This document shows positions 10,242 to 58,130 of a DNA stretch of 64,000 nucleotides, in pieces. The stretch comes from Mytilus galloprovincialis (lineage: Eukaryota; Mollusca; Bivalvia; Mytilida; Mytilidae): NCBI RefSeq assembly GCF_965363235.1, contig NC_134848.1:62582181-62646180 (forward strand), given 5' to 3'. The notes beneath the pieces were generated by a model. That model had not been told where the DNA came from, ran no database searches, and was given only the letters and a program-made list of their open reading frames with translations. A program made the translations under genes and the position numbers. Each line of letters opens with the position of its first letter. Positions within the stretch are counted from its first letter, which is position 1.

Positions 10242-10454
10242 TCAATATGTAATCCTACAAGTGAATGGACTATTTTGTACATTTTCATCTGACCATTTGA
10301 CACAGATGATATAAATGCCCGGATGTCTGACCTCATATATGACTTCATATAGATTATCTCCCGTATACACGACACATGTTTCTACTACACTGTGTGATCT
10401 CGGACCATAGATGTTAACAGACAGGGAACCATTATCCAATGCATTTGTCCAGAC
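10242..10454 (-). CDS. Filamin-like gene, terminal coding exon (last filamin Ig repeat)
   Basis: Acceptor TTTTATTTTCCAG|GTCTGG, phase 0. It encodes VWTNALDNGSLSVNIYGPR, a central strand pattern, and SPFTCRITY followed by TGA at 10244-10242. With the end of the giant exon this completes one filamin Ig fold of about 90 residues. No further filamin repeats follow, unlike canonical filamins with 20 or more. Confidence 0.9.
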   Translation of the reverse strand, partial: VWTNALDNGSLSVNIYGPRSHSVVETCVVYTGDNLYEVIYEVRHPGIYIICVKWSDENVQNSPFTCRITY

Positions 10455-16400: not shown

Positions 16401-19400
16401 ATTCCAATGTTTTCGGGTTCAATAAGTGGTGAACTTTTAAGCCAGCCTTCAACATCAAATTTTTCGGAGGCTTCTTTGATGTCTAATTTCTTTAGAGGTT
16501 TCAAATCTTTATTCTTTTTTTCTGTTAAATCTTTAGGAAAGATATGTATATTTGAACATTTTGTTTGGTAATTTAGGTCGCTGTTTAATGTTCCGTTTTC
16601 ATTAGAAAGGGTCAAATTCATCGTTTCCTTAATATTAGTTTGTGAATTTGAATTGTCATTTTTACATTCGTCAGTGTGATGTAATTTATGATCTTCATCT
16701 TTTATAAGTAAACACTTAGATCCTACATTCCGCATAAAATTTGGTGGTAAGCTTACTTCAGCATTTGATTCTTGTCGAGACCCAGACATCGAATCCGATA
16801 TGCTACTACAAGAGACCAAGCTCTGTGATGTGGTGATTGCCTTTCCACTTATGTAGAAACATGCTTTCCGCAAACTACTAGACTGTAACATTTTAAGATT
16901 AGGGGAAGCTTTCGGACTTCCATTATCATGGTTTTGTGATTCTGGATTACGTGACATGATATCACCATGCGCACACACAAACAGTTTTTTCAGTACTTTG
17001 TCTTTGTCTAGACTTGATTCAGATAACGAACGATTAAGTACAACTATATTTGAAAGTCTCTTGTCTTTACCTGGAAGTTTGTTTTCCGTATTCCCTAACT
17101 TTGGAATAGCGCTATCTGAATTTTGGCGTGTAATTCCATATTCCCGCTTAGCCATGCTTTGAAGACAACAATCAAGAAATTTCTGGCTTATTTCATTGCC
17201 GAATCCTGAAAATGGTCTTTTGACGTCACTTCCGTTTGAATTACTTTCCTGATCTGAAGTAGTCACAGAACTCAATGTTAATGACGATTCAGTCCGAGGA
17301 ACATCGTTATATGCAGATTTCTCCGTAATTCTTGCCATCGTTGGTTCCAGATTCATTTTTCGTTTTTCCACGTTCGGACTTGACGACCTTGACCTTTGAC
17401 GTCTCAGATTAGATATGTCCTTTGCTGCTCGTAGCAGAGCAGGACTAGACGACCTCGAAGAATGCGCAGTTCTGTGATATGAACTTCCATCTTCATCTGT
17501 ATAATCAGAGATATCGGTTAGACTACTTTGGCGAGAGAGGGGAGGAGTTTGGCTTTCAGTTATGATAATTTCTTCTCCATTTCGTGCTATGACTTTCTTC
17601 AAAATCCTACGTTTTGTTATAGTATATTGTTTACGGATGCGTTGTGGAGATGCAGAGACTGTTTCTGAACAACTTTTACTGTCATTTTTTAATTGTTTTT
17701 TATCTGGAGTAGAATTGTGTTCCTGTAAGTTATTTCCATCAAAAGACATTGAGAGTGAATCCAATAAAAGACGTTTTCCGGTTGACTCTGATATTCCTCG
17801 TCTATTGACGTCACTAAGTTTATAAACTTTTATTTTAAATGGAGATCCTTCCACGTGTTTGTCTTGCCAGCGTAATGACAAGGTGTGAATACCTGCTGAT
17901 ACAGGTGTAAAAGACATTGCAAAACAACCTTCACTGCTGCACGTGCAATTAAAATCGAATGCGTTATAGACAGCATGGCCACCGTATTGTGTTACATTCT
18001 TCCATCTAACGTAAGTGTTACCATGGCTGTCCTCTAAGTAGGCTAATACTTTTGTATCTCCAGCAGGTACTTTTTGGTCCGGATTTAAACGTTTAACGAC
18101 TTTATTTTTATTGTTCAGTATAGTTTCGCTGGATTGATGAAGACTAACAATTTTTTCACTGTATACTTCATTCCTGGGACCTTTCAGTTGTAAATACATG
18201 TCGAACATACCAAAGACATTGGAGATGGTAACAGTAAACTTGGTCTTACGTCCCACTACTCCTGCCTTTAACCCCGATCCCTTAACAGTACAGCAGGCAA
18301 TCGGTTTACTAATTGACCTGGATCCAGTTATCTCGATTTCATTTTTCGATTTCTTTTCAGATGCCCACTTTATAGTAGAAATTAAATTAAAGATTTTACG
18401 TTCTGTACGTTTGTTTGCAATGGCCATTTCTTCTGGTGTAACCATATCCTGAAAGAAAAGATACATCAAATATAGAGGTTGCATGATAATCGATGAATAG
18501 GAAACAACACAAAAAAGACATATAAATTTAATAACACAAAGTGAAAACGCTCGATGCATAATAATTATTTGCTTTTCTTTGTCGACATGGAATGAAATTA
18601 AGCAGCTGCACGTAATACGAGAGGTATAAATGTTCCACTGAAAGTATTTTAGCCGATTTAAGATCTAGATTGTCGAGAAAAGATATCGATCTTACCGCCT
18701 ATACATTTATAGAAATATGATTGGTTAAAAGTGACAGTGTGACGATATTTAATATATAAGGTAAGTGGTATGGGGTTATGTTTTTTCAGTGAGATGAATT
18801 CGTTACACAGTGTGCTAGTGCTGTTTTATAAATTTTCTAGAGCGGTATCGATGACCTGACTTAAAGCAGCAGACGCATGCTTGTGTTATCGTTTATTAAG
18901 AAGTTCAATCCCTAGGCATCCGCCATTAAAATGTATATTCATGCATAACGTTAACAGTGCATTGCTTCTACATCTCACTTACCTGGGGAATTTTTAGATA
19001 TTGCTGTGCCAGTCTAATTCCAAGCCGACAGTTGTTAACTCTATTGTGCATTTTCAAGTTTTTGTAACCTGGGCAGGATCCGGGTAACACAGATTCCAGC
19101 AAGGCACAAAGTGATATACCATCGTGCCATGAGGATGAAAAATTCTCAACTGATCGGTCTGGAATTTTGGTCTTTATCCAAAGCAGAATGGACAATTTTC
19201 GCTTTGACTCTATAAAACAAAGAAATTGTGTTTAGAATTTGTTTATGTTTCTACTTTTGACTGCATTTTTTTTGGTCGAATAAGTAAGGCTGCAAGTAAT
19301 ATTTATATGAATAATGCGAAAAATATCGTCACGGCTTTCTTCCTGGAAGTATAATTTATATCTCCCAAACGATATTTCCGGACTTGTATTTCCTATCATG

Positions 19401-35709: not shown

Positions 35710-38700
35710 CTGGAAATATAACGACAAAACAGTTAAGTACTATAAATTATAAAGGGATATTGTATTTAAAGTAGATAATAAGTACTGTAAATTGTAAGGG
35801 CTATTCCAGTAAAAAATGTATGGGGGAGGGGGGGGGAGGGGTTTGGAAGACACATTATATTAATAATACATGGGTGATGGGTATCTGAGCAACTTTTCAC
35901 ACTATGATGCACTATAATTCTCAATTACAATTGTCTGGGTGACGGGTGCTGACAAAAACTGCATATCAAATTAACTTATAAAGGAACATCATTATAGAAC
36001 TGTAAAAGTGGCGCTACCAAAGTTTAAACTTGATCTGAGTTTTGTGGTTAAAGTATTGTGTATAAGTGTCATAACATTTGGTTGAAAAAATGGTTGAGGC
36101 AAACTTAAGTTAGAGAATTGGAAGTAAATATTCAAATGGACAAGGATAAAATCTAATGTCCCCTCTGCTACAGCATAGAAATTAGTTGCTTTATTATGAA
36201 AACTATCCCATTGGGATTTTGCAATACATGAAATAATATATTTGCAAATTGTTCTGACTTTTAATTTATTCATGACCATTATTCTATATCAAATTATAAC
36301 AGCAATGGCTACATCTATAGCCTACAATATTATTTAACTAGGTCACTGTGATGTAATTGTTAAAGAAAAAGTTTATCTGTGAGCTTCTTTAAGTTTAAGA
36401 TGAAGAGCACAGTATAGCATGCTTATATGAATGGTATACCAAATTTGAGGTTTTACTATAAAATGTACTTACTTAATATACAATATTAGGTCAATGTCAG
36501 AAAAATATAAACCTTTTTTTGTATTCAGCACAAAACTGGGTAAGGGTGAGGTTCTACTGAGCAGTTTCTTAGCCTCATACAAAAAAGTTTATATTTTTCT
36601 AACATTGACCTAATATTGTTTTTATACTGAAACTTAAATTAAAACATTGATAGCTATTAAAATAGTAACACAAACTTCAAAATTATTATCATCCCTTAAT
36701 GAATCACTGATTGTGGAAAAATGGTTCCATGATGAAATTGACATTGCACAAAATAAAGCTGTTTTATTAAATTTAGGAAATAAACACAACTAGCATAACT
36801 AGTTGCAGTATAAAATGAGCTATTTAATATCAGTTTCTGGTGAAAATAGATATTTTACTGTAATATGTACAGTACTTACTTACTTAATTAAATGTGTTAT
36901 TTCCTGATCAATTTTTAGTTGAACTGGAGGTTTTACTATAACATGTACTTACTTAATTAAATGAGCAATTTCCCAATTAGTTTCTGGCTGAACTGGAGGT
37001 TTTACTATACAACCGTCTTTTGTTACTATTGCCACTTCATACTGAAATTAAACAAGCAAATATTAAATAAAATGTTTGAAAATATAATCAATATTTATGA
37101 TGATCTTTGAATTAAAAATACATTGGTCTCTCCTCTGTATGTAACCCCCTAATCTTATTAACCCTTTCAACGCTACACAAAAAAATGGAAAAATGGCTGC
37201 TGCTGCTGCTGCATTTTTTTTGTTGTGTTCATTCATTAGAACAGTATATTCCTTTTCCTATTATAAGAGATACAGAGAAAGTTATTGCATGAAAAATGCT
37301 CGGGAGAACATGAAATATAAATTTAAGCAATTATTTCAGTATAATTTTTATCAGGTTAGGTTGTTGTTTAATCTGACATATAATAAAGAAGACCCTAGTT
37401 GCTTGATCCCAAAGCATATTGCATCACATTACACAATGTAAAATGTAATCATGGCAAACATATGCTTCGTCCTCAAAATTTTCAGTCAACCACTGTTTCC
37501 CCCCCCCCCCCCCCCCCCCCCCCCCCTTTTTCTACGTCTTGTAATGATTGGTCAAATCATATTTCCTACACGAATTAAATGTAATAAACACATTGAGATA
37601 ACAGGAAACCTTTTAACTAATCCTTGTTGTCAGTTTCGGCATAGAAATGCTGTAATATTTTCATATGAATAGCTTCGTTTCAGATTTCCGCTATTTGCAT
37701 TTGTCAAAATATTTGTTTTTAATTTCCTTCTACTGCATGATTTTACTTAAAAAATTGCCGGGATTTTCAGCACAAATGAGACCTTGTATATCCTTGAATC
37801 ATACCAAGAAAAATTGGAGAGAACCTGAATGAAAACCAGATGGTTTAAGAGTCCTGATGAAAAATCCATTGTCATTGCGGCATATGCTGCGAATAGCAGT
37901 GGCGGACAGCGTATGTCATCGCATCATATGCCGCGTATAGAATTGAAATGGTTAAAATCGCATTTATTCTAAAATGACAAATTCACAATAATAAATACAG
38001 GCAGTAATTTCTGAATTTACAGTATTTTGATCTTATGGTTTTTAAATTTTTAAAGCAAGGAAAACAAATAATTTTCAGTTATGAGCATATAATTATATCT
38101 ATTCTTTTTCCATTTTTCAAAGTATTTTTAGCATTTGAATCTGCTTTATACAAATATGAAATATAATCAATATCAAAACCAGTTTTTCACACAATAATTT
38201 TAATGGGTTTCTTGTAAAAAAGTTTTTCCTATAGGGCAAGGATCAGATAAAGTGTAACATTTGTGTGACATAACGTCCGTCACATTTAAGCCCATATATC
38301 AAGATTTTAAATATATTAGAGGAATCTTCAAAATTTCAGTGTTGACTTGTGTGATTATAGAGATAGTTCTTTGTTTCAATACTTGTCAACAGACATTCAA
38401 ACAAAGGCACAACTTTTGTGATGGATGTTACATTGACAAGTTTGACATGCTAATTTTAGATCAAAGAAAGTTTTAAATGTATTTCAAACTAATTAAATTA
38501 CATGGTTTTCATTCTTGTTCTGAACTCATGAAAATGCACATCTTGGAAGTTTAAAGTTAAAAAGAATAATGGGGTTAAAAAAAAGTAATGGACGTCACAA
38601 AAATATGATGCATATTTGTTTAGTTTCCATTCCAACTAATCACTACTGGACACCAGGAGAGTCAAAATGGTTAGGATTATATAACTGGTAGTAGTAAAAA

Positions 38701-41700
38701 CCCAGAGTCAATGGGAAATGGATATTAATAATGGTTAATTTGTTTAGTGTGATGGAAGTTTTGTTTGACAGTTTGACATTTTATAAGTCACATTTCACAT
38801 CTGTGTAACGGGCGTCACAAAAAAATGCTGTATATTTTTTTATTTTTCAACCTAAGTTCTTACAACTGGACGCCTGTAGAGTCAGAATTGGTAAAATACA
38901 TCAAAATGGTTGTATGTAAAAGATAAAGAATCAATAGAAAATAGATACATATAAGAATTCATTTGTATAGTGTGACAGACGTTTTGTTTGACAGTTTGAC
39001 ATTTTCCAAGTTAAATTTTACACTCATGCATGAGAATTTTAAAAGAAATGATGTACTGATAACTTTGGTACTTAATCAAAGACGTAGAACCAGCATTTCT
39101 TGCATACCACTAAATGACATTGTGTATATCAACACAGTTCGACAGGAATTATAAACTATTTATTTTAGGAAATATTGTCAAAAATAACGCCTGTTCTATA
39201 TGATTGTGGAATTTGGAACTGAATGACTCAATTTCACCTTACTATTGCACAATTTCAATGTTAGGGTAGAATAATAACAGTTCACTGGTATCATGATATT
39301 CTCTGTTCAAAACAATGAGATACATACTTGCAAATGTTTGCCCTTTATACAGGGAGGTCAAACAATAACAGTCGTTCGTTGATTAATTGTCACATAGTAA
39401 TTGGCAAAAATAGTTTCCTAGTTTTCATTAAAATATTTCATTTTAACAAACAATTATTATCAATAACTGTTACAATATCTATATCAAATATAACCATAAC
39501 ATGATACTTCGTGGTTGTATCTCGTATGAGACACTTTGTACAATCATTAAATATTAGAACGCCCGTTATTCTTGAAAAAATATTTGACCGACACTAAACT
39601 TACCCTTCTGCAAGTTACACTATCTATTTTTGACACATAGATCAATGACATAGTAATCATGTGTACCCAATTACAAAGCACATGATGTGATGATGTATAC
39701 CACTCTTTCATGTAAATATAGACAGTTTGATCGCCGTTACTTTGAAAATTTGAAATGCTTGTCTTTTGTAATATCTATGTCTGAATGCAATATTTCTTAG
39801 CAAATTTTAAAGGATTATTATTTGAGGGTTCCTGAACATTTGTAGGGTTATATTAGACATTGTACTTCAACAGTAAACAAAGTTAAAAATTAGGTCATAA
39901 TTTGACAGACAGCATAATGGACAAACAGTGATTTTTGAAGAGTTTTTTCTCAATAAATCTGCACAAATTATTCCTACTCATAGGTTTGAAGTGTTCATTG
40001 ACATGTTATTTCTCAATATTAATAAAGCTGGAGAACATGCAATTTGACAAATGGATATTCTAAATCAATTTTCTCAAAGGCCTACTAAATGTCACAAAAT
40101 GGCTGACAAAAAACATTGACATTTCAGGAAAAAATCCAATTAAAAATCGAACCACAAATAGTTAATAAATGATTTTATTTATTATATATATACACTACAA
40201 ACACCACTTTGTTTTGGTTTATGACTCTTATTTATACACATAAGTAAAGAAAATTTTCACAAGAAATGTTCGGGCGTTACTTTTTACACTTTATCTGATC
40301 TTTGCCCTATACTCCAGTGCCCAAACTCTTAATATAAGAATAACCTTTACCTAATAACAAAATAGTGTATGTGCCAAGACAGGGGCATATTATTCTGCAG
40401 TAATAATTTTTTTGTTGTATTTCATATTAGTTTTTCAGTTTGTAATTTTGTCATGTCTGTACTATGCCGTATGGGTTTTTCTAACAGTTGACGGCCATAC
40501 AAGCTCTCCATCATTTGAAATCTGATGGATAGTTGTCTCATTGATATTCATACGGCATCTACTTATTTTTCTATTACACAGCAATATTACCTTGTTAATA
40601 GATCTAGCATCTCTGTAATACAAAATCTTCATACATCTTTCTATCTGTTTTTGTGCTTCCTCTAACGTCATGTTAGGATTATTCTCATAGGCTTCTCTTA
40701 ATAAAGGCTGAAATGTATATTAGTATTTTAATGTTTTATAACCTTATACAAAATAAATATATATTTTATCAGCATATAGCAGGCCTCTACATTAACATTT
40801 TTTCTAACTTGTCCCTTCGGACAAGTGGCAAGAAAATCAGCTTGTCCGAACTCTCAACTCACTTGTCCGAATTCATAATTAAAAATCTAACATATTGATG
40901 ATTTATGCAATAATAACACTTGGGCTTTGATTGTACCTAATAAAAGGAGCATTTTGTAATGTTATATGAATACCGCATCAAAATACATTTCATTATTTCA
41001 GAATGAAAGTTTTTTTGCAAGACTGTGTTCTCTGACTCAATGTCACTATCATTTGTCAATCATTTAATCATCATTTCTTCCCAAACCACTACGTTCCCCT
41101 ATGGACCTATTCATTCTTTAGTAGTGGTATGGGTTAAACCAAGGATGTAAATACACCTGGCCACCTTGAACATGTATATGAGTAAACCTTTTTAATTTAT
41201 TGATGATGTCAAAACAAGCTTTTACAATTTATTTTGATTTGTATATACATTGATATATGATCATGAAGTACATACACATTTCACTAAAAAATCTGCCTTT
41301 TAAGTTTTTTTGTTTTTTTTCATCTTAAATTTTTATATCACATGTCATAGATTTTATCAAATAAAACCTCTTTTAATATATTGTTATGCATAAAAGCAAA
41401 ATCAAATGAAACATACTTTAATTTAATATTTTAAAGTTTAGGTAAAACTCCATATGGAGGTGCTCCTAATTCAAGGAAGCTTATACTAAGAAGATACATT
41501 AACATTGGTTTCTTTCCCCTTACTTATATCCCCCTGGTCAATGGCTGCCAGCATGTTCAATACTCCAAATCAGAGACATATAATACAAGTTTTATATGTC
41601 TCTGGTTCAATCAACGAATAATTATTTCATTAAGTATGATAAATAAAACAATCATTCATATTTTTGGGAATGTATAAGTCTTGAATTTGATCTATTTTTA

Positions 41701-44700
41701 TCTGACCTTGATTTTTTTAACTTGTCCCATCGGACAAGTAGTATGGTGAATCTACTTGCCCGACACCTGTGTGCACTTGTCCCGGACAATCGGACAAGCG
41801 TTAATGTCGAGCCCTGTATATTTGTTGTGATATTGAAGAGGAGTATTAGATTATTGTCACATAATTTAGTGTTAAAGTGCTAGTTCACAAGTCTGTAGTA
41901 CTGAGACAGGCCACCCTACCAGGACATACCAATTTCAGAGTCTTCCAGTCGGTGCCATGATACACATGTATATCATATCAGCAAGTAACTGTAGGAATTA
42001 TGATTGCATTTTATACATAGTTAACCACAAAAAGCAGAAAATTACATTTTTTTTTCGAAAAAAAGCTGGATTACCAATTCAGGAATATGATATTTGTTAT
42101 CCTTTTGTTTGATGTGTTTGATCTTTTGATTTTGCCATTTGATTAGTGACCTCCCGTTCAGATCTTTCCTTGAAGTTTGGTATTTTTGTTATTTTACTAT
42201 TTATTGTGACTTACATTTGCTATATATGCTCCATAACCAGTACAAATAGTTGGCGATTCATAAGCTACACCTATCTTGTCAACAAAACCTAAAAAGCTGT
42301 AATATATAATATGCAAATTATTGGCAATCTGTACAGTATGTTCCAACTGATAAATATTTTTTTAGATCACAGGCTGGATGTTATATCTTTAAAATTTTGG
42401 CAAACCATCAAGAAACAATGATTTTCTTTTATAAATACATGCAATATCATTGCTATAATGGAAGAAGCTATCAAAATACTTTGAATGTTTGAATTTTTTT
42501 ACTACATTTACTACTTGAAAGTACTGTATAGTATAATGACATCAATACTATGACATAAGATCTAGTGGGCAAGTAGAACTGGTTTAACCATAGCTAATTA
42601 TATATAACCAGTCATAGAAATTGGGGTTGGGCATAGTTTACAGGAACTAATTGATGATTTTTCAAATTATTACTACAAATGTACAAAAATCAACAGGACC
42701 GAATATATTTTTACAGGACTATCCTGCGCATCCTGTGCTAATTCTGAGGACTAAACCCAACTATTTTTCATGCCTGTACAAAATCAGGCTATCTGAATCA
42801 TATATTGCTTCAATTTGTTTGTGTTTTTATGCTCTTTCTTTCTGATGTAATGAGCAATAATCTCAGGTTCAAAATTGAATACTTATGGTTCTCTGTCCTG
42901 TAATCTTTCAACAATTGAATACTTACGGTTCTCTGTCCTGTAATTTTTCAACAATTGAATACTTACGGTTCTCCGTCCTGTAATCTTTCAACAATTGAAT
43001 ACTTACGGTTCTCCATCCTGTAATCTTTCAACAATTGAATACTTACGGTTCTCCGTCCTGTAATCCTCCAACAAGGAACACATTCCACAGTGGATTAAAC
43101 TGTGACCTTCTGTTATACAGTATTCTAGTCATCCATGAGTACAGTCCCCTTGGTGTGTAGCCAAAACCGTCATTTAAGCATTCTTCATCTATTCTGTAAA
43201 TATGTATGCAAAACAATTAAACATTAGTTTACATTTGAAATTAATAACTTTAATTGATTTCAATACAAATTAAACAAGCAATCCATGATTATCCTTAAAA
43301 ATGCACTCAACATGCTCAACAACACATGTTTACCAAAAATACACAACATCATCCCATATGTCATCAGAAAATGAAATGGAAATGTTTAAAATTACATCGT
43401 ACATGTACATGAAAAGCTTAAAATAATAAATTAATTCAACACAGCTACATTGTACCATATGCCTACACACACTTACATTGTATAAAAAAAATCTATGCAT
43501 TCAGTATAATTAGTTTTAATATAGTGGTTGAAGTTGTTCATGAAATATAACCAATTTATTTTTGACCAGGTTATATCAGACATACATGTATTAGATGTTT
43601 TCAGGAGTGTGATAATAAATATAGTATTAATGCTCTTGGTACACAAATTTTTCTTGTAGTTGCACAACATGTATTATAAATATATTATAAATGTGCACAA
43701 GCTTGTCAACAAGAGCTGCACAAAAATCCTGTTCTTTGTCTTAAACTTTAACAATTTTCAGCTCTAGGATTTTATTCTAAGCTGTATCAACAACAGAAAA
43801 CGTTTTCATATTGCTGCAATTTGTATCTATGGTTTAGCCATACATGTACATGACTTACACTCTTTGTTCAATAACACTCTGTAAATACTGGAAATCTGCA
43901 TAATCTCCCCCACAGCCTATGATTGTACTGTCATTAACCTTCATCACACGAGAGAGATTCCTGTACCTGGCGAGAGAGCCGTATGATCCTAACATGTCAG
44001 CAGCTATCACTACCCCACCATTAAACTTTATACCTAGGACAGACGTTCCAGTTACAGTTGGTGCTCTGAAATACAAATGAAATAAAGAAAAGAGGGTTAA
44101 GTCAAGATAATATTTAGACATCTGCAGTTTATACTAATTAAGATATACATGAAATAGTTACAACTTGTACTGAATTTTTTGTAACATTGTTATGTTTCAT
44201 TTCATAGATAGATAAATCAACAATTTGATAGTTATTGGAAAGTTCAGTTGATCTCGTCTGAGATTTGTTCTTCTTGGTCATGTTGGTGACATAAAAATTG
44301 CTTATTGATAAACCATGGATTTGTTTGGAATGCATTCTAAAACAAGTTCATCAGTTTTTTCTTGTGTTAGTGAATAAGCACATGTCTTAAGCTTTCTTTA
44401 ATTATTAATCATCATGATTATAAGATTTTTTTGTAAAAAAAAGCCTTCTTTTGAGACCAAATGAATATGATTAATTAATGATTAAATACAACACATATAC
44501 TTACACAACCTAACTTACAGTTTATTGTTCGTCATTTCTGTTATGCTTACATGTACCGGTAGGTTCATTAAATAGTGGAGATTACAGAAAATTCAGGTGG
44601 TATTCTGCTTTCAAATTGCTTAAAAGTTTTGATAGCACATCTCAAAAATATAATCAATGCAGACCACTATAGAGTTACATGTATGTCCTTCACAGGAAAA

Positions 44701-47700
44701 AAATCAACAATTATGTGCGCCTTTAGCATTTACCAGATATACATGTAACATCATTACATGTGCAAGGGGATCACTTGTATTAACATTCATCAAGCGTCTA
44801 AGTGTCATTATTTTGAAGGATAGTCTAGAAATAAGGTTTGTTCTGTAGATGCATGTACATTTTTTTGTACTTAATCATAATTTCTTAATTTCTTAATGAC
44901 AACAGTGCTGATTGTCAATTGTGAGAATTTAATTTGTCAAGACAAATAATTTGAAAAATTAGTAGAAAAAAAAAGTAGAATATTTTTTAACTAGTAAATT
45001 GTCACAGAATTGAAGATGCAGCTAAACTAATAAATGATGTTCACTCAAATGAATTTTTTGGGCAAAAATGCATCCAAGTTGAAAGGAATGCATGTCGTTT
45101 CGTAACCTGGTCGTTTCGTAACTATGTTGATTTGTAACTGAGACGTTTCATACCTGGTGTAATTATATATGGTTATAAGTGTTAGTTTAAATTAATTAGT
45201 TTAAATGAAACAGTTAAAGTTATTAATTTATAAATGATCAAATTGTTCATCTAATAATAACAATATTGTAATGTTTTTAATTTAAAACTTTCTTAAATCT
45301 TTTTAATTATTGGCTATAATTGGTAATTATGCTTAGGTGTTCTTTCTGTAGTTATAGACTCCAATATCGTCAGACTAAAAACAAGAAACATGAAAGAAAC
45401 CTAATGATGGAATAAAAAAAGATTAATAAAGAACTCAGCAACATAAAGATGAGTGGTGTCAAGTATTGGAGACAACAAAGCACGTGGCAGACAACTAAAT
45501 ACTTTGATAAGGACGGGGTACATCTAAAATGATGATGGACAATTTCAATTCTTCTATTCTATTCGCATGTGTGCAAAACTGTACTTGTTAAGGTGGCTCG
45601 GGTCTATTCGGATTTTCTATCAGAAAGGCCGTATTTTTTGTTATTTTATTCTTTAAAGAAAGTGAATGAAATTGGTCGAAAAAAAATAGGGGGTCACGGA
45701 CCATTTAAGCTCAAAATTTTACTTTTAAACAGGTATGCAAAAGGGACCATTTTTCAATGAAATGATAGGGAAAATAGAGGTGTTGACATATTTTTATCGG
45801 AATATCAAAAAAACATTCTATGACACTTGGTCCAAAACTGTAATATAGGAACTTGAAATATAGCTTTAAAGAATGTGCAAATAAAAAACATAGGTCACCG
45901 ATAAGGAAAAAAAATTATTTTGCATCAAAACCCAAATTTTGGCGGGAAAATGGTAAAACTGCGTGAAATGTCGTTTTGAGCCCTTAAAAGATACACATAA
46001 TAACGAAAATATTCTTTAAGTGACATACCTACAATGATTTAACATTTCTAATCAATCAAAATATTAAAAAAATAATTTCGAATTTACGACAAATACTTTT
46101 CGTGTACATTGTAATTCATGCGTGAAATTATGCGCAGTCGAATAGTCCCGATCCACCTTAAGTGCAAAATTTTGTGCAATCAATTATCTAATAAATAAAT
46201 ATAGATATATATATATATATGTACACCAATAGGTCTTTTTATTATTTTTAAGTAACCTACGACTCATATTATTATTATATATTGACATGGGGACGAAGTC
46301 CCCAATAACAGTAGAAAATTCAATAAAAAAAAAAAAAAAAAGATCGGAAAAATTTTCCCGATATTTTCATTGTACTAATGAACTCAAAATCGTTCAGATT
46401 TTTTTTTCTCGCGTTTTTGAATTTCCGGATCTGCGCAGAAATTTACTTTCGTTTCTGATCTTGTTTGCATTAGACTTTGAATAAAATGTATATTTATCAG
46501 TTTAAGAAAGGAACTCAATACTATTAATTCATTTTTAAAAATTGTTTATTATAAAAAAAAACGTTACCTGATGACAGCGTTTCTTTGTTTACATTGAATA
46601 TGACGTCATAACTTAAATAACGTCACAACTAAAATCCCTAACAACAGAACCAAAATCGGAAACGTTACATTCTTTGTTTACATTGAATATGACGTCATAA
46701 CGTCACAACTAAATCCTTAACAACAGAACCAAAATCGGAAACGTTACGGTATTTCCGTTTCTCTTTTTAACATGTTTGATTTATAAAAAAAAATCATACA
46801 GACTTCGTCCCCATTCACAGGTTATGCCTGCCTCATATTATTGGTTACAAAACGTCTCAGGTACGAAACGACCTAGTAAGTTACGAATCGACTAGTCCGA
46901 GATTACCCTGACGTCCAACGGCTGTTTTGCCAGACAAGCTGGGGCCGTGGGACGTCAGAAGTCGTCCCATATCAAAAAGTGGATATTTGCCCACCCAAAA
47001 AAAAATGCGCTGCTTCGTCGCTTCTGAGGCCGACTGACGGCCTTGGAATTATATAAATCGGGCATCAATCTGTTCATTTTTCATTTATCTCTTCATTTAT
47101 GTAAGTTTCACCTACCTGCCAACCTTTATTTTTCCATATTTTAACAGTTTTCACAGTGACCCATCGATTTCGACATTTTGACTTTCACTTTCAAATGGAC
47201 GTCAAGTTACGAGAGAGTTCGTGGTCTCGAGACTCAAAATATGCAAATATTTATATTTTTTCACCTCCTTTATAGGAGATCGATGTTTAACATTTAGTTC
47301 CGACCACGTTACAATCGGAAGCTCTCGGACATTTAGATAACTTGCATTGTAAATGAACGAGGTGTTACAATATAGTCATTTGCATAAATCATCACTGTTT
47401 TCTCGTGGTCACGTGATTATCTTTGAAAATGAAAGGCAAAATGCTGAAATCGATGGGTCACTGTGAAAACTGTTAAAATATGGAAAAATAAAGGTTGGCA
47501 GGTAGGTGAAACTTACATAAATGAAGAGATAAATGAAAATGAACAGATTGATGCCCGAATTATATAATTCCAAGGCCGTCAGTCGGCCTCAGAAGCGACG
47601 AAGCAGCGCATCTATTTTGGGTGGGCAAATATCCACTTTTTGATATGGGACGAGCTCTGACGTCCCACGGCCCCAGCTTGTCTGGCAAAACAGCCGTAGG

Positions 47701-48160
47701 ACGTCAGAGTAATCTGGGACTATGAATCGACTAAGTTACGAAATGACCAGGTTAGGAAACGACCTGCACCGGTCTAAAGGAGCCTGTAATTCATGTTTTC
47801 GTTTGTTACACATTTGTTTTTTTGTTCATTACTTTGTACATTAAACAGAATGGAGCCAAGAAAGAAATGATCTGTCAAACGCATAGGACATGCATGGTTT
47901 TGACCTGACTGGTAGACTAATTTCAACATTACTACCAACAATGACATATTAATGTTTCAAAATAAAGAGAAAAAAGGGGGGATTTGTAACACGGCTTGTG
48001 TACTTGTTTATTGTGAGATGCCTTACAGTGTACGTTTAGCTGCACCAATCTGTGATTGATTTTGCATTGCAGTCTGTCCTGGTCCTGGGAAATTGTAAAC
48101 GGAACCAGGAGATGGTCCATTTCTCCAAAATTCTGTAGACATCATACTCTCCGAAGTCAT
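35697..48160 (-). CDS. PSMB4: Proteasome subunit beta type-4 (20S core beta-7), 7 coding exons
   Basis: Coding exons 48027-48160, 43859-44065, 43047-43193, 42215-42296, 40591-40707, 36953-37041 and 35697-35709 splice in phase to 262 residues; the human protein, from memory, is 264. Beta-7 is a non-catalytic subunit of the 20S proteasome beta ring, in cytosol and nucleus, needed for assembly and joining of half-proteasomes. Family-specific blocks run throughout: [99 protein letters not shown]. Introns 1, 4 and 5 are filled with transposons, and exons 3 and 6 have tandemly copied 3' ends. The start was chosen as the first ATG of an exon that joins in phase. An ETS-type site lies just outside it. 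Confidence 0.96.
36438..37008 (-). repeat. Degenerate tandem copies of the PSMB4 exon 6 end
   Basis: A unit of about 70-78 bp spanning the exon 6 end and donor recurs at about 36863-36940 and, more decayed, about 36814-36862, with a fragment at 36438-36480. The nearest copy still translates to [18 protein letters not shown] and ends at AA|GTAAGT, in the same frame as the true [18 protein letters not shown]. Confidence 0.75.
36481..36618. repeat. Imperfect hairpin in the last PSMB4 intron
   Basis: Arms of about 42 bases (36481-36524 and 36577-36618; CAATATTAGGTCAATGT and its complement) around a loop of about 52 bases. It directly abuts a fragment of the exon 6-end repeat. Confidence 0.8.
36953..37041 (-). 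CDS. PSMB4: PSMB4 exon 6
   Basis: Acceptor TTTAATTTCAG|TATGAAG; encodes [18 protein letters not shown] and [11 protein letters not shown]. The frame would stop at TAA right after HLIK, but AA|GTAAGT is a perfect donor, and splicing to 35709 restores the family C terminus (K-GYE). Degenerate copies of the exon end with its donor lie downstream. Confidence 0.93.
37158..37955. mobile_element. TTAA-bordered inverted-repeat element, about 798 bp, in PSMB4 intron 5
   Basis: TTAACCCTTTCAACGCTA inverted against TAGAATTGAAATGGTTAA. The interior has a (GCT)5 tract, a poly-C run at about 37500-37526 and a GCGGCATATG/CATATGCCGC pair. No transposase recognised. Confidence 0.6.
38231..40313. mobile_element. 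About 2.1-kb TA-bordered element with 26-28-bp inverted ends, PSMB4 intron 5
   Basis: TATAGGGCAAGGATCAGATA at the left is complementary to TATCTGATCTTTGCCCTATA at the right. The interior carries several spaced copies of a GACGTCCGTCAC/GGACGTCACAAAAA motif. No transposase frame recognised. The TA border fits, but does not prove, a Tc1/mariner-type mechanism. Confidence 0.7.
40591..40707 (-). CDS. PSMB4: PSMB4 exon 5
   Basis: Acceptor ACATTTCAG|CCTTTA, donor AACAAG|GTAATA; 117 bp, phase 0 both sides, encoding [19 protein letters not shown] and [16 protein letters not shown], the conserved helix and strand of beta-7. Confidence 0.95.
40780..41816. mobile_element. hAT-like non-autonomous element, 1,037 bp, in PSMB4 intron 4
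   Basis: CAGGCCTCTACATTAAC inverted against GTTAATGTCGAGCCCTG, resembling hAT ends (CAGGGCTCGA.ATTAA). Short palindromes (ACTTGTCC..TCGGACAAGT) repeat near both ends. No intact transposase, and no clear 8-bp target duplication. Confidence 0.7.
42215..42296 (-). CDS. PSMB4: PSMB4 exon 4
   Basis: Acceptor ATATTACAG|CTTTTTAGG, donor GCAAAT|GTAAGT; 82 bp encoding [20 protein letters not shown] then YGAYIAN. It joins DGEP of exon 3, and phase 0 leaves it. Confidence 0.95.
42871..43070 (-). repeat. Five 40-bp tandem copies of the PSMB4 exon 3 end plus donor
   Basis: Units at 42871, 42911, 42951, 42991 and 43031, exactly 40 bp apart, each with the exon 3 end (GGAGAACC) and intron start. Only the 43031 unit is continuous with the exon. 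Donors are GTAAGT in the first four units read on the minus strand and ATAAGT in the last. Any downstream donor would add 40n bases and meet TAA at once. Confidence 0.93.
43047..43193 (-). CDS. PSMB4: PSMB4 exon 3
   Basis: Acceptor ATATTTACAG|AATAGATG, donor GAGAACC|GTAAGT; 147 bp, encoding [48 protein letters not shown]. The last 24 bases of the exon with the donor are copied in tandem into the intron at a 40-bp period (see repeat 42871-43070). Confidence 0.95.
43859..44065 (-). CDS. PSMB4: PSMB4 exon 2
   Basis: Acceptor TTGTATTTCAG|AGCACC, donor AAAGAGT|GTAAGT. It encodes the start of the mature beta fold, [15 protein letters not shown], then [17 protein letters not shown] and [16 protein letters not shown]. 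Conservation with vertebrate beta-7 is very high and is the main evidence for the gene. Confidence 0.97.
45588..46161. mobile_element. TTAA-flanked MITE, 574 bp (family E), in PSMB4 intron 1
   Basis: Ends TTAAGGTGGCTCGGGTCTA and its near-complement CGATCCACCTTAA; TTAA at both borders. It sits inside the larger 45093-47764 element. Confidence 0.85.
46289..46812. mobile_element. MITE with GGGGACGAAGTC ends, 524 bp
   Basis: GGGGACGAAGTC at the left is the exact complement of GACTTCGTCCCC at the right. Inside lie two tandem copies of about 90 bp (about 46576-46750) with TTTACATTGAATATGACGTC and CAGAACCAAAATCGGAAACG. Confidence 0.75.
46893..47722. mobile_element. Foldback element, 830 bp, about 300-bp arms, 9-bp target duplication
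   Basis: Arms 46893-47193 and 47423-47722 are near-identical inverted copies (TAGTCC.AGATTAC at the tip, CTGACGTCC, CCCATCGATTTC inward). CGAATCGAC (46884-46892) and TGAATCGAC (47723-47731) flank it. Long inverted ends and 9-bp duplications are typical of Mutator-like elements. Confidence 0.82.
48027..48160 (-). CDS. PSMB4: PSMB4 exon 1
   Basis: ATG at 48160-48158; 44 codons plus two bases, donor ACACT|GTAAGG. It encodes [19 protein letters not shown] and the rest of the variable N-terminal prosegment up to AAKRT, matching the layout of the human N terminus (Trp followed by GGPAPG). Phase 2 out. Confidence 0.88.
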
Positions 48161-49226: not shown

Positions 49227-49637
49227 CCCCTGTGAGATGATAATGAATAATTCATGAATATGCATGAACATTTCATGAACTGTTCATGAACAGATTTCAT
49301 GAACAGTTCATCATATCTTCATGAACATTTGATGAGCAATTCATGAACTGAAAATCGACAGTAATGTTCATGAACTTTAATGTTCATGAACAATTCATGA
49401 ACAAGAAAGGGTTCATGATCATTGTTGTTCATGAACATTTAAATGTTCATGAACCTTTCTTGTTCATGAATTGTTCATGAACATTAAAGTTCATGAACAT
49501 TACTGTCGATTTTCAGTTCATGAATTGCTCATCAAATGTTCATGAAGATATGATGAACTGTTCATGAAATCTGTTCATGAACAGTTCATGAAATGTTCAT
49601 GCATATTCATGAATTATTCATTATCATCTCACAGGGG
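49227..49637. mobile_element. Giant palindromic element, 411 bp, TA target site
   Basis: The whole stretch is a near-perfect palindrome centred at 49432, bounded by TA on each side (TACCCCTGTGAGATGA at the left, its complement at the right). It is built of many TTCATGAA-type short palindromes. No coding. Confidence 0.92.
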
Positions 49638-51060
49638 TAATTTACTGTCAAGGAGAGGATTCTGGGGGGGATTGGAACCCACCCTTTTTTAGCAAGATCA
49701 ATGCATATGAAAGGGTTTATAGTACATAGTTTGAACCCCACACCTTTTTTAAAATGGCTGGATCTGCACCTGTACCCACCCAATATTAAAACTAAAGTAA
49801 CTATGCGTCAGATATAATAATATAAAAGGATACATGTAAAGTTTCTGCTTCTTTCTGTAATATTTTGTTGTCTCTGTTCTTCCAAGTAGAATCGCTGAAT
49901 AAATGTAACTAAAATCTCCACGGAATCTGTTTTACTATCAAAACTGGCAGCTCCATTTTGATATTTAATCATTCAATCCCCTAAAAGTATAAAAAAAATC
50001 CACAAAGAATCAATTGTTCTAGATGTTTTAAAGCAATAAAATTCAATTGAAATGTTGTTGCCTGTTTATACACTACATCTGAAGCTGTTAATGAATCAAA
50101 TTCATTTCAAAACCCTCCCCCTTTTTATCCCCTGAAGATTATAAAAACTGGCTACTTATTATTTTCACAAAAGAACAATTCAAACAATTCAAAAACTATA
50201 AATTTTAGGTAACTACCAATAATCATATGTGGAAACAATTATTCATTTTGTTTATATAATTAAAAATAAATTTTCAAATATGCTTTCAGACTTTCTGATG
50301 TTGCTTTGCTCAAAGAAACCATAAAAAAAATATATTTCCTCAACAAATTATATTTTATAATAATATACACATGTCTGTCATGTTAAATTAAATTTGTAAT
50401 GCACTTATCTGAAATCTTTCTGACTGGAAATGTCTTTTCCGTGTTTCCATCAGCGTAATCTCCATTTTGGTGACGTATTACCCAAGAGTGCACTTATGCT
50501 GACGTTGAGACTGTGACAATCTCGCCCCAGATAATATCGGCCAGAAGTTGATCTGTGCCGTAACGGAAGTATGAAAATAAATCAAGGGTGTCGCAAACAA
50601 ATATTTATTAATATGCAGTTTTATTAAGTATAATAAAAAAAAAATCTTTAGTTTAAACGGCACATGGTGCATGTGAATAAACAAGTGGACTCACTTGGAA
50701 GGTATTTTTAGGGCCGAACTGTTCAGTACGATTAAAACCACGAGGTCAAGGTTTGTTTACATTGTACATACGTTGAGAAACGTCTGTCGTTGGGCCTATC
50801 TATCATTGATCTGATATTTTTCTAAGTTATTTATATGCCGGACGACAATTAATAGAAAGGCACATATGTGAACTTGGAGAAAATCAGAATTTACATCTTT
50901 AGCAGTTTAGGGAAAGGAAGAGTAAAAAAAACCTTCTTGCAGCAAACCAGTAACAGCAGTGACAGTCCCACACGCAGTGTTACCAGTTACTAAATCATCT
51001 ATTATTCATAACACATGCATATGACAGATGAACATTTCAAGAATTTCAATGATCAGCTCG

Positions 51061-51425
51061 TGATTCATCAAAACTTCATGAACATTCATAAAATACTTTT
51101 AATGAACATTTCATGAATTTTTATGAGCAGCTACTGATTCATCAAAACTTCATGAACATTCATAAAATACTTTTAATGAACATTTCATGAATTTTTATGA
51201 GCAGCTAGTGATTCATCAAAACTTCATGAACATTCATAAAATACTTTTAATGAACATTTCATGAATTTTTATGAACATCTAGTGATTCATCAAAACTTCA
51301 TGAACATTCATAAATACTTTTAATGAACATTTCATGATTTTTTATGAGCAGCTAGTGATTCATCAAAACTTCATGAACATTCATAAAATACTTTTAATGA
51401 ACAGTTCATGAATTAAATTCATGAA
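51061..51425. repeat. 74-bp tandem array, about five copies
   Basis: TGATTCATCAAAACTTCATG starts at 51061, 51135, 51209, 51283 and 51356, each unit also holding ACTTTTAATGAACATTTC. One unit is a base shorter. Confidence 0.92.
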
Positions 51426-51883
51426 CCTTCATTTATGAATTATTTATGAATTTTCATGTACCATTCATGAACATTCACGAACCATTCATGATAGTTCATG
51501 AAGTCATGAATTTCTTCTCGCCGGGGAAGTTTTTGATGAAGCTGAAGTCCAATCAACTTGAAACTTGATACACATGTTCCCCATGATATGATCTTTCTAA
51601 TTTTAATGCCAAATTATAGTTTTGACCCCAATTTCATGGTTCACTGAACATAGAAAATGATAGTGCAAAGTTCAGGTTAAAGTTTTTGGTCAAGGTAGTT
51701 TTTGATGAAGTTAAAGTTACATCAACTTGAAACTTAGTACACATGTTCCCTATGATATGATCTTTCTAATTTTAATTCCAAATTAAAGTTTTGACCCCAA
51801 TTTCATGGTCCACTGCACATAGAAAATGATAGTGTGAGTGGGGCATCCGTGTACTATGGACACATTCTTGTTTATTTTGGTAT

Positions 51884-51994
51884 CCGGTCGTTCCGGCCCC
51901 AAACCGATCCGGCCCCAAGTCAATCCGGCCCAAAGTCGATCCGGCCCAAGTAGATCCGGCCCACGTCGATCCGTCCCCAAGTCGATCCGGCCCC
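51884..51994 (-). repeat. Array of GGCCGGATCGACTT-type 14-16-bp units (left arm)
   Basis: About eight degenerate units read on the minus strand. Inverted counterpart at 58031-58130. Confidence 0.88.
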
Positions 51995-52856
51995 ATAATA
52001 AAATATGGATTAACTAGATTTTGGAGGAATTTGTCACAAACTTTAACAGTATAAATGGAATTTGAAAAAAAGTGTCCAATCAATGATGGATGACAACAGG
52101 TCAGTGAAGTATTGGAGTACCAGTTAACGAACTATTTTAAATCCATACGAAAATTAGTGTTATTGTGTCTGTTTGTATCGCAGTTTCTACATTTTTAAAT
52201 TATGAAGTTATTTTCCATAATAACTTTTACTTTGAATTTCATGGCGATTTTTATTTTATTCAGTTCACACACAGAATAGCTAAATAAATATTTACAGTCC
52301 AATGTACCTATAAAATTTAACGCATAATAATGACTTATATAATCAAATCATTAGTCTATAATTGGTTTGTTTATTCAACAGTTGTCTGATGATTGTGAAA
52401 TAAGGTAATGCCACTCGTAATCACTTAATTCAATCCAATGCGGATTAATTAAAGTTACGTAATCTGTTTTTCAAGAAAGTCTTTATAGTTTGATCTTCTG
52501 CATGGTTGGTGTATATTATAATAATTATTTGTATTTTTTTTTCAGGTTACATCATAGGCTTCTATAACATATAAAAATATTCTATTCTATAACACTTTTT
52601 TTTTGTAACATCAGATATAGTCAATATATTTTTCTTATTTTGACAATATTTTGAATAGTGTATTAATAAGATAAATAAGATAAATACGTTTATTGCAATA
52701 AGCACAATTATGCTATAGCACATTTAAATTACAACATTATCATGTGTAAGCAACATGAAATTTATATTAATACATAGGTATACAAAACTGCAGAGAACAT
52801 AATTAACAATATGAACATTTTGTTAATGAAAAAGACAATTAGATTCATATATATAA

Positions 52857-53892
52857 CTAAGTTAATATGAAAGTTCTGAGTTTCCAACTTTCACGCAAAA
52901 AACACATCAAATTGTAAATAACAGTTTTTGTTTGAACTTGTAGTAGTGAATACAGTTTGTTGATATTTGGCCATGTATGATAATGTTTTGAGAAGTATTT
53001 AAGTCTATACTGTCTATATGCTGGACAAACCATAATAAAATGATATTCGTTCTCTATACATTGCATAGTACAACATTTACAAATTCTATCCTCCCTTCGT
53101 TGTTTTATGTAACGACCAGTTTCCATATTTAGTTTTAATACACCAAATCTTAATAAAGACAACATTTTAACATTGATATTTTTCAATATATATTGTTCCA
53201 TCTTAAAACCTGTTTTTATCACTTTGTACAATATTAGTTTTTCAGAGCTCTCTACAGACTCACGCCAGCTCTGATAAAATTGATCTAACAGACGTTCATT
53301 CAAAATATCAAAGTTTACATTAACATTCTCTTGTGCATACCATAAATAATTAAATCCAAGTTGAAAAAGTAAATTACGAACATTTGTGGCCCAATTTTCT
53401 TTACCACTATTACAGTCAGCAACTAGAACTTGATATATTTCATATACAATATCTGGTTTCTTGTTTATAATATTAACCCAGTATTTCAACAACTTTTGTT
53501 TCCTAGTAACATACATAGGTAAATGACCAAGATCGCCAATAATACAACAGACAGGCGTGTTTTTGGGTACTTTTAAAACAAATCTACAAAATTTATTATG
53601 TACAGTTTCGATTTCTTTTGCATGATGAAAACCCCATACTTCAGAGGCGTAGTTTAAAATAGACATAACTAGACTGTCAAACATAGCACATTGCTGTTCT
53701 GGTGAAATATAAGTAGATCTTAATGAGTTTAACAATGCTGCAAGCGCTCTACTTCCCTGTCCCGCTAGGCGTTTTTGAGTTTGTTGAAATTTACCGTTGT
53801 AATGTAGAAGAACTCCAAGGTATACATAGTGATCGACTACTTTTAGTTCCGTATTGTCATAATGCCATGAATGGTTTACTCTTTGCCATCCT
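52857..53892 (-). pseudogene. LINE ORF2 C-terminal part with Cys/His knuckle
   Basis: In the shifted frame it continues RKGWQRVNHSWHYDN and VDHYVYLGVLLH (thumb region), and ends with a C-C-H-C knuckle (CKCCTMQCIENEYHF then CPAYRQYR), the common terminal motif of LINE ORF2 proteins. Confidence 0.87.
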
Positions 53893-54875
53893 TTACGAAA
53901 AAACTACAACTTCTGTTTTATCCTTATTAACCCCAATTTTCCATTTTGTACAGTAGACGAATAATTTATCTAAAAGAAACTGTAGAGCTTCCGGTGTTTT
54001 TCCAAATAGCACAGTGTCATCAGCGAATAACAACAAATATATCAAATATCCATTAAGGCTTATGTAATCACTAGTTCTATTATCATTCATACGTAGATCA
54101 TCAGCAATGTCATTTATAAAAAATATGAAAAGTAGAGGAGACAAGGGTTCACCTTGTTTTACACCAATATTATTACAAAAAACATCTGAAAGTAATCCAT
54201 CGCATTTAACGCGAATGTTCACAGTTGCATATACTGACTGCACCATGGAAACAAACTTGCTACTAATTCCACTATTGAAAAGCTTATACCAAAGTATGCG
54301 ACGGTCGACATTGTCAAAAGCTTTACAAAAGTCCACGAATGCTGAATACAGTTTTTCCTTTTGCGACAAGGTTGTTGATATTATTCCATGAAGAATAAAA
54401 ACAGCGTCGACAGTTGATTTTTGGCGACGAAATCCAAATTGGTTTGCTAAAAGAATCTCATTATCTTCGGCCCAACAAAGTAAACGATTATTCAAAATTG
54501 AAGTAAAGATCTTTGAAAATACACTAATCAATATAATTGGCCTATAGTTATTAGGGTTTGTAAGATCCCCTTTCTTTGGTACAGGTATAGCAATTCCTTC
54601 TATCCAATTATCGGGGTATATACTAAATTCAAAAAGTTTATTAAACAAAACTGTTAAAAATGTTGAAAAAAGTTGAGAATCTGATAAAAACATTTCTCCA
54701 CTGATTTCATCTGTTCCTGTACTTTTACCACGCTTTAGTTTTTTAATAGCAGATTCAATTTCAGATTCAGTAAATTCGTTATCTAAATCGTCTATGTGAA
54801 GATCTTCCGAATGAATGTTGTCTATTAACGTTTTAACTTCTTCTGATAAATCACCAGGTTCCGCACCAAGAAAGT
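53893..54875 (-). pseudogene. LINE ORF2 reverse transcriptase domain
   Basis: Palm and finger motifs in order: GKSTGTDEISG, IPVPKKGD, NNYRPIILISVFSKIF, FVDFCKAFDNVDR, GVKQGEPLSPLLFIFF (motif B), LLLFADDTVLF (catalytic Asp pair) and KTEVVVFS. A stop follows because of a one-base shift in a T run at about 53893. Confidence 0.9.
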
Positions 54876-56252
54876 TTTTAAATGTTCAAAAATGTCTTTT
54901 GCATCGGCCGCGCATCTAGATCGACCCTTAGGTCTAACTTTTGACCAGAATTCTCTAGGATTCACTTTAGCCAATCGACTTAGCTCCTGTCCACGTACAC
55001 GTTTATATCGTGTTTTCGCTTTTCGTTTAACTTTGTTGTATTCGTTTCTTGTTGACACGTATAATTGTCTATTGGGATTGCTTGGGTAGCGCTGAAAACG
55101 GTTCCGTGCTTGGTGAAATTCACTTCTAAACAGTTTACATGAGTGATCGAACCAATCATTTGTACTAAGTTTATGTTTACTTAAATGTTTTTTAACAGAT
55201 GTTTTACCAAAAACATTAAGCGCGCATTTAAATATAACATCGGTGATCACATTTACGGCGTTGTTCGCACTTTCATTGTCATTTATGTTGTTTACTAGTT
55301 CCAACAGATCAGTTTGTTTCTCCCGTAATGCTTGCGTGTAATCGCTAACTTTCTCATTATCCCACTTTATATATGTATAATGGTTTGAAGAATGTTCCTC
55401 ATTATACGTTCGATTAGTCTGAATTTCATAAAATAAAGGCGAATGGTCAGAAAATTCATTATGTTCCAGAACTTTAAAATTCTCAACCAATTTATAATCA
55501 CATGGACAAGTTAACAGATAATCATTCACACTTCTTCCGTTTGAAGTACAAAATGTAAATTGACCAGCCAGATCGTTTCGTAGTCTACCATTACATATAG
55601 TTAAACCCGTGTTATGACACATTTGGACAAGCTTTCGACCAAACTTATTTACTGTTGTATCCTTTGAACATCTTGGAGGAGTAATGGGATTTTCATCATG
55701 CACTACACTACTAACATATCTATCTAAATTATCAAAACCTAGCCAATCATCTAGTAACCCAACTCTACTATTAAAATCACCACAAACAAGTATACTTCCT
55801 TTTTCTCTATACTCAAAAACAATATTTTCTATTAATTCAAAAAAGTCACAGTCATTTACATTATAATATGAGGACTTCTCATGGGGTATGTACACAAAAC
55901 ATATGTAAATATCAGTATCATTATGAAAAAAATCCTTTTTTAACTTTATCAATAAAATACCATTTTCAATTTCCTTGACTATTTCAATACCTTTCATAAT
56001 ATATGGTTTACAGTAAAAACATATTCCACCCTCGTTTCTGACCCCTTTATTATTACATCTACCAAATGACGATAGATTTTCAAAATTATTTAAGTGTGGC
56101 TTATTACTGCCCTTTAACCATGATTCACAAAGAAATAATAAATCATAATCATTAACAAAATTTAAAAAGTCATTGTCATCGATACAAGAAATAATACCAT
56201 GAATGTTCCAACTTAAACACTTGATATTTCGAGAATGCTCTCTGCGTGTATC
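54825..56252 (-). pseudogene. LINE ORF2 endonuclease part (APE type)
   Basis: Open directly after the ORF1 stop TAG (56255-56253) and in the same frame. Shows LSWNIHG (catalytic Asn), LFLCESWLKG (catalytic Glu), LVCGDFNSRV (Asp and Asn), and the terminal EFSDHSPLFYEI (SDH). The following linker contains a basic stretch (KVKRKAKTRYKRVRGQELS). The frame shifts near 54875, where the continuation GAEPGDLSEEVKTL is one base out. Confidence 0.88.
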
Positions 56253-58030: not shown

Positions 58031-58130
58031 GGGGCCGGATCGACTTTACATATGGGCCGGATCGACGTGGGGCCAGATCGACGTGGGACGGATCGACTTG
58101 GGCCAGATCGACGTGGGGCCGGATCTACCC
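58031..58130 (+). repeat. Array of GGCCGGATCGACGT-type units (right arm)
   Basis: About seven units of 14-16 bp, complementary in orientation to 51884-51994. The two arrays bracket about 6.2 kb. Confidence 0.88.

Follow-up and report, generated by a model that had tools for sequence, protein, structure and literature searches.

Why should a gene for a proteasome subunit carry the end of one of its exons, together with the 5' splice site (donor) that follows it, five times over? The stretch analysed here (the window: 64,000 nucleotides, 32% G+C, holding intron-bearing animal genes) contains such an arrangement within PSMB4, and an initial annotation had read it as a ladder of competing decoy donors, either tolerated or used to tune output through nonsense-mediated decay (NMD). 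Our analysis supported that interpretation in part; the anatomy and the frame consequences proved right.

The gene itself was delineated on the minus strand, from 48160 to 36949, as an intact six-exon PSMB4 of 259 amino acids with GT-AG introns and no stop in frame. The coding part of exon 1 (48027..48160), exon 2 (43859..44065), exon 3 (43047..43193; 147 nt), exon 4 (42215..42296), exon 5 (40591..40707) and the coding part of exon 6 (36949..37041, with the stop codon TAA at 36951-36949), all on the minus strand, are separated by introns 1-5 of 3961, 665, 750, 1507 and 3549 nt, exon 3 thus being flanked by introns of 665 and 750 nt. Exons 2 to 6 were located by tblastn with human PSMB4. Exon 1 was found weakly in this search (against the human N terminus, E was 0.044 with the N-terminal piece and 1.1 with the full protein), and its frame joins that of exon 2; its start codon was chosen by inspection. 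When exons 2-5 were joined, the product matched the mouse chain 'Proteasome subunit beta type-4' (PDB 3unb_M) at E = 4.2e-85 over 183 residues, and the six-exon protein matched the Pfam Proteasome family (PF00227) at 2.2e-32. Among the best 60 of 167 matches, the first 17 ran from 4.2e-85 to 1.3e-81, 16 of them named beta type-4 and one 'Proteasome subunit beta'; those that followed were at 2.1e-49 and weaker, including yeast PRE4/beta type-7 at about 1e-48, the differently named chain 8adn_J ('beta type-4') at 2.9e-11 and, as the first of the beta type-1 chains, one at 1.6e-09. Within these 60, the match to PSMB4 was better than that to other beta subunits. The gene had been named correctly, with its frame intact, and the label 'exon 3' is right provided that there is no further 5' exon. 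All six exons stay in one open frame, so the gene that hosts the array appears to be functional. A search of the PSMB4 protein against viral_contigs, a viral collection uninformative on relatives, confirmed 0 of 16 stretches. Elsewhere in the window, the minus strand holds separate frames at 10245-19231 that may be parts of one gene: a calponin homology domain is encoded at 18971-19231, and filamin repeats lie at 10245-10505 and inside the 1417-codon open stretch at 14414-18664.

In this setting, Tandem Repeats Finder (TRF) reported an array at 42868-43074 with a period of 40, 5.2 copies, 94% matches, 0% indels and a score of 358. The 40-bp unit joins the final 28 bases of PSMB4 exon 3 to the 12 with which intron 3 begins (minus strand), and five in-register copies without indels span 43074-42875; copy boundaries are arbitrary to within a few bases. 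The five-fold 40-bp repeat of an exon end and its donor was therefore borne out, and the initial annotation had put it in the right place, although its span of 42871-43070 is 4 bases off our boundaries. Copy 1 (43035..43074, minus) holds the exon 3 end and the intron 3 start with the authentic donor, GT at 43046-43045, across which frame and protein match run on into exon 4. Copies 2 (42995..43034), 3 (42955..42994) and 4 (42915..42954), likewise on the minus strand, carry intact donors at 43006, 42966 and 42926 and differ from copy 1 at 3, 2 and 4 bases, respectively; copy 5 (42875..42914, minus) has 4 differences from copy 1, and its donor at 42886 is broken from GT to AT. Donors 1-4, the second of which reads ACC/GTAAGT like the rest, are identical from -3 to +6, and donor 5 is ACC/ATAAGT; both the four intact donors and the dead fifth had been annotated correctly.

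A 25-mer of the unit was found at 5 places in the window when up to 3 mismatches were allowed, all of them inside the array, and 100 dinucleotide-preserving shuffles gave 0 matches to it; the array is therefore not a product of chance, and the unit is not a dispersed repeat within the 64-kb window. Minisatellites, in the definition given in PMC3618361, have units of 15-100 bp; head-to-tail units of 40 bp, in 5.2 copies with 94% matches, place the array among them. Rfam at gathering thresholds gave 0 matches. A 32-base exact pattern of the unit gave 0 matches in viral_contigs, a viral collection uninformative on relatives, and an 18-base pattern gave 11 single matches in genome_contigs, all in bacterial records of a prokaryote collection equally uninformative on relatives, with about 7 expected by chance on our own estimate.

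Assemblies often have the copy number of short arrays wrong, and on this general ground the array could be an artefact or a collapsed or expanded repeat, the true number of copies being different or one. However, all ten of the ten pairwise comparisons of copies were non-identical, with 1 to 4 base differences each, and five mutually distinct copies with nested shared changes are not what a duplicated read or contig end would give. We regard an artefact as highly improbable, and the array as a confirmed, real observation in the assembled sequence.

The differences among the copies also bear on how the array arose. Every one is a change from C:G to T:A. Two positions, 7 and 9, set copies 2 to 5 together apart from the exon (GGAGG in the exon vs GAAAG), copy 4 has one more change within the GAAAG stretch, and position 21 is changed in both copy 4 and copy 5; because these shared changes are nested, the copies appear to have arisen in steps, and the pattern suggests one duplication, after which the intronic copy multiplied. 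On one side, the joint TTCAATTGTTGAAAGATTACAG is similar to the exon (TTGTTGGAGGATTACAG), and on its other side to the intron sequence that follows the array (TTCAATTTTGAACC); the two shared differences may mark a recombinant joint between similar stretches 40 bp apart, or may be early changes. The founding event would have been a local tandem duplication across the boundary of exon 3 and intron 3. Its likely seed is a short stretch in the exon (TTGTTGGA) with a similar counterpart 40 bp away in the intron (perhaps TTGTTGAA, which today reads TT-TTGAA in the tail behind the array); slippage or unequal exchange between the two would have copied the intervening 40 bp, and the intronic copies would then have multiplied.

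The two CpGs of the unit take 3 of the 4 later changes, and the change that breaks the donor of copy 5 sits at a CpG. This excess had P = 0.0037 when all 40 positions were treated as equal and 0.06 when C/G positions only were counted; with the two shared differences counted as well (3 of 6) it had P = 0.016. The excess is suggestive only. The observed/expected CpG ratio is 0.41 for the six PSMB4 exons pooled, 0.16-0.50 for introns 2-5, 1.01 for intron 1 and 0.71 for the whole window, and the low values fit germline methylation of a housekeeping gene body. Along 36949-48160 the ratio drops after intron 1, as if a methylated gene body began there; oyster methylation, according to PMC4378273, rises after the transcription start and is then level along gene bodies, which we offer as an analogy only.

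The consequences of using any donor other than the first follow from the frame. Whenever donor 1 is left unused, the reading frame runs into TAA at 43043..43045 (minus). Donors 2, 3, 4 and 5 would add 40, 80, 120 and 160 nt, and in every case this TAA comes first, so that donors 2 to 5 and retention of intron 3 all give an identical product of 163 amino acids; that a downstream donor adds 40n bases and meets TAA at once had been foreseen precisely. The junctions formed by donors 2, 3 and 4 would fall 36, 76 and 116 nt past the TAA, and the exon 4/5 and 5/6 junctions come later still; for these three donors the premature stop thus lies upstream of exon junctions. Transcripts with a stop upstream of exon junctions are generally degraded by NMD. 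As the stop precedes the junctions, NMD of downstream-donor transcripts is to be expected from the gene model.

Such an arrangement invites the thought that the ladder is kept for regulated unproductive splicing, in which some PSMB4 transcripts would use donors 2-4 and NMD would set the output of the subunit. Three extra donors are perfect from -3 to +6, and every downstream choice meets the same immediate stop, with junctions further on to trigger NMD. The stop needs no design, however: intron retention yields the same product, so the uniform outcome comes from the frame at donor 1 and not from a designed ladder. One of the four extra donors is dead. The 9-mer of the donor, which makes up 22.5% of the unit, holds 1 of the 4 later changes with 0.9 expected, a weak test on so few changes, and the intronic donors show no measurable sparing relative to the rest of the unit at this small number of changes. 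Identical donors under exon definition, moreover, led to use of the upstream one only in the minigene results of PMC9225289. Regulation of this kind is decidedly unlikely.

In order to compare the donors, their pairing with the end of U1 was computed. Donors 1-4 pair at -7.6 kcal/mol each and donor 5 at -4.4; the other four donors of the gene, at -4.8 to -6.6, pair more poorly than donors 1-4. One acceptor is thus faced by at least two donors of similar strength, donors 1-4 being identical. RNA structure that masks the extra donors was considered and rejected, since the predicted fold gave donor 1 no advantage; its mean unpaired probability was 0.41, 0.40 and 0.14 at three flank lengths, and that of donors 2-4 was 0.33-0.52.

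With strength equal, position should decide, and the closest published constructs speak to it. Carranza et al. (2022; PMC9225289), in their section on minigenes, describe five constructs, each with two CAG/guaagu donors of the same sequence spaced 52 nt apart and introns of 365 nt; in all five, only the upstream donor was used. When both donors were strongly weakened, skipping predominated for the two largest exons, and in the M and S constructs the upstream donor was still chosen (PMC9225289, same section). Human events with donors of near equal strength and long introns prefer the upstream site, according to the genomic part of that paper; before strength matching, the preference was downstream (about 60%, 2,497 of 4,171), and in the classical experiments among its references the advantage lay with the donor closer to the 3' splice site (PMC9225289). 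The PSMB4 array resembles the minigenes in having identical donors (40 vs 52 nt apart) in an exon between long introns. It differs in being natural, in belonging to another animal and in having four intact donors and one dead one rather than two, and the minigene donors, CAG/GTAAGT, are better than ACC/GTAAGT.

Two expectations follow. A 147-nt exon 3 between introns of 665 and 750 nt implies that the authentic donor should win, and upstream-only use in the minigenes implies little competition among the PSMB4 donors; donors 2-4 would accordingly be near-silent in RNA, by analogy with those constructs. Of the 'ladder of competing decoy donors' in the initial annotation, the equality of donors 1-4 in U1 pairing holds, and the competition is, on the minigene results given in PMC9225289, expected to be slight. 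The same evidence weighs on a passive cost of the array, that is, an unregulated but measurable leak that would leave less PSMB4 from the allele, mildly harmful or drifting at low frequency. Equal donors 40 nt apart could be expected to leak, and most human alternative donor events considered without strength matching go downstream (PMC9225289, genomic part); the closest published constructs, by contrast, were upstream-only in that paper's minigene section. We consider such a leak unlikely.

In each unit, TTACAG stands 11 nt ahead of the donor, an order of signals that could serve as a cassette for 11-nt microexons or as a first step to intron gain. The AG-11 nt-donor series is present in each intronic unit (with the GT broken in unit 5), and the true acceptors of the gene are pyrimidine-poor too (9-13 of 17 vs 7 of 17 in the units). 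Splicing between neighbouring units, however, would leave an intron of 29 nt (69 or 109 nt if units were jumped), a single 11-nt insertion shifts the frame, and the joined exons give an intact protein without microexons. Microexon use is extremely improbable.

A second array of an exon end lies in the same gene. At 36877..37009 (minus), the coding end of exon 6, its stop and GTAAGTA are repeated with a period of 69 at 84% over 64 nt, the second copy lying in the 3' UTR, and a degenerate third copy of this end stands at 36829..36862 (minus; 71% and 74% over 34 nt vs the other two). This array, which the initial annotation leaves unmentioned, is more diverged than that of exon 3. By inspection, the last 19 codons of the UTR copy have six changed residues vs two silent changes; its candidacy as a second coding end was rejected on these six residues and on its placement after the stop, and it looks like a relic. 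Judged by its sequence, the exon 6 array is a recurrence of exon-end copying in PSMB4 without evident function. Two other features were noted in intron 5: a plus-strand stretch of 28 consecutive C at 37499-37526, about 460 nt before exon 6, likely an assembly weak spot, and repeats at about 220 bp spacing at 38417-39022, 75-79% alike over 89-96 nt.

Tandem repeats are frequent in the window as a whole. When 45 TRF rows were merged by hand, 28 arrays remained, that of PSMB4 exon 3 included, and they cover 4360 of the 64,000 bases (6.8%). Coverage puts the chance that an array falls on at least one of the gene's five donors at about 0.30, and placing the 17 arrays with a period of at least 20 at random puts it at 0.26; in so repeat-rich a window, an array on a PSMB4 donor is therefore not surprising. 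GTAAGT occurs in 2 of the 28 arrays with 0.63 expected; this is no evidence for a splice-linked mechanism behind the arrays, which was rejected on that count. Among the other repeats are dense tandem arrays of GTTCATGAAC-like words with several periods at 49243-51502, and arrays of a 16-bp unit (GTCGATCCGGCCC...) at 51887-51995 and, as the reverse complement, at 58053-58125, on opposite flanks of a retrotransposon-like region. Within that region, 52860-56252 (minus) holds pieces resembling a non-LTR retrotransposon, among them frames that match an endonuclease family (PF03372) and a reverse transcriptase family (PF00078); Pfam gave no match for the frame at 52863-53903.

We reason that the array is, with good probability, a young, tolerated minisatellite in an otherwise ordinary PSMB4, lying behind an authentic donor which exon definition picks. 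It would be tolerated because all of its extra copies fall inside intron 3. A short exon 3 between long introns most likely undergoes definition across the exon, which would fix the donor nearest its acceptor, namely the first; the further donors would be bound by U1 at most in passing, and rare downstream use would lead to the immediate stop, with NMD as a backstop that should remove the transcript. Of the two fates offered by the initial annotation, toleration is favoured; nothing was found for tuning, with no measurable sparing of the donors over the few changes, one of them dead and the exon 6 array present as well.

Several points were counted against toleration. Three perfect extra donors could reflect constraint, on which the changes are too few to speak. 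No other donor of the gene pairs with U1 as well as donors 1-4 do, and the predicted fold does not single out donor 1. The downstream preference of human events and the exon skipping seen with weakened minigenes (PMC9225289) also count here. A natural rheostat, in which the number of donors in an allele would set the share of PSMB4 lost to NMD and copy number would vary among individuals, and dose with it, strikes us as very unlikely. Among the papers listed for splice-site minisatellites, PSMB4 in mussels and donor repeats, a set short of most subscription papers, no title or opening of an abstract reports this case.

The interest of the tolerated minisatellite lies in its construction, with four identical donors spaced regularly every 40 nt in one intron of a housekeeping gene and one common stop as readout. 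Without engineering, it could test whether proximity across the exon by itself settles the choice on the first of several equal donors in an animal only distantly related to human. If proximity does so, the array would be an example of splicing that tolerates duplicated signals; if it does not, the array would become a dose-setting repeat.

Among known systems, regulated unproductive splicing with NMD (RUST) is alike in that the alternative splice would end translation early and lead to NMD; the array differs in showing no evidence of use, regulation or conservation. Minisatellites that alter genes, the internal tandem repeats in the examples of De Grassi and Ciccarelli (2009; PMC2812944), similarly multiply a short unit inside a gene. 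In PSMB4, unlike those examples, the unit crosses from exon into intron and the additional copies lie in the intron, which leaves the protein as it is as long as donor 1 is used. Intron gain by tandem duplication, in the case presented in PMC2891723 (2010), likewise copies splice signals, with AG and GT both in the unit. The PSMB4 array, unlike that case, grew out of a donor already in place and extends an intron that was already there, without making a new one; intron gain was rejected here, since splicing from donor 1 to the far acceptor keeps exons 3 and 4 in frame and requires no new intron. Set beside these systems, the array is a neat natural test of donor choice rather than a new kind of system.
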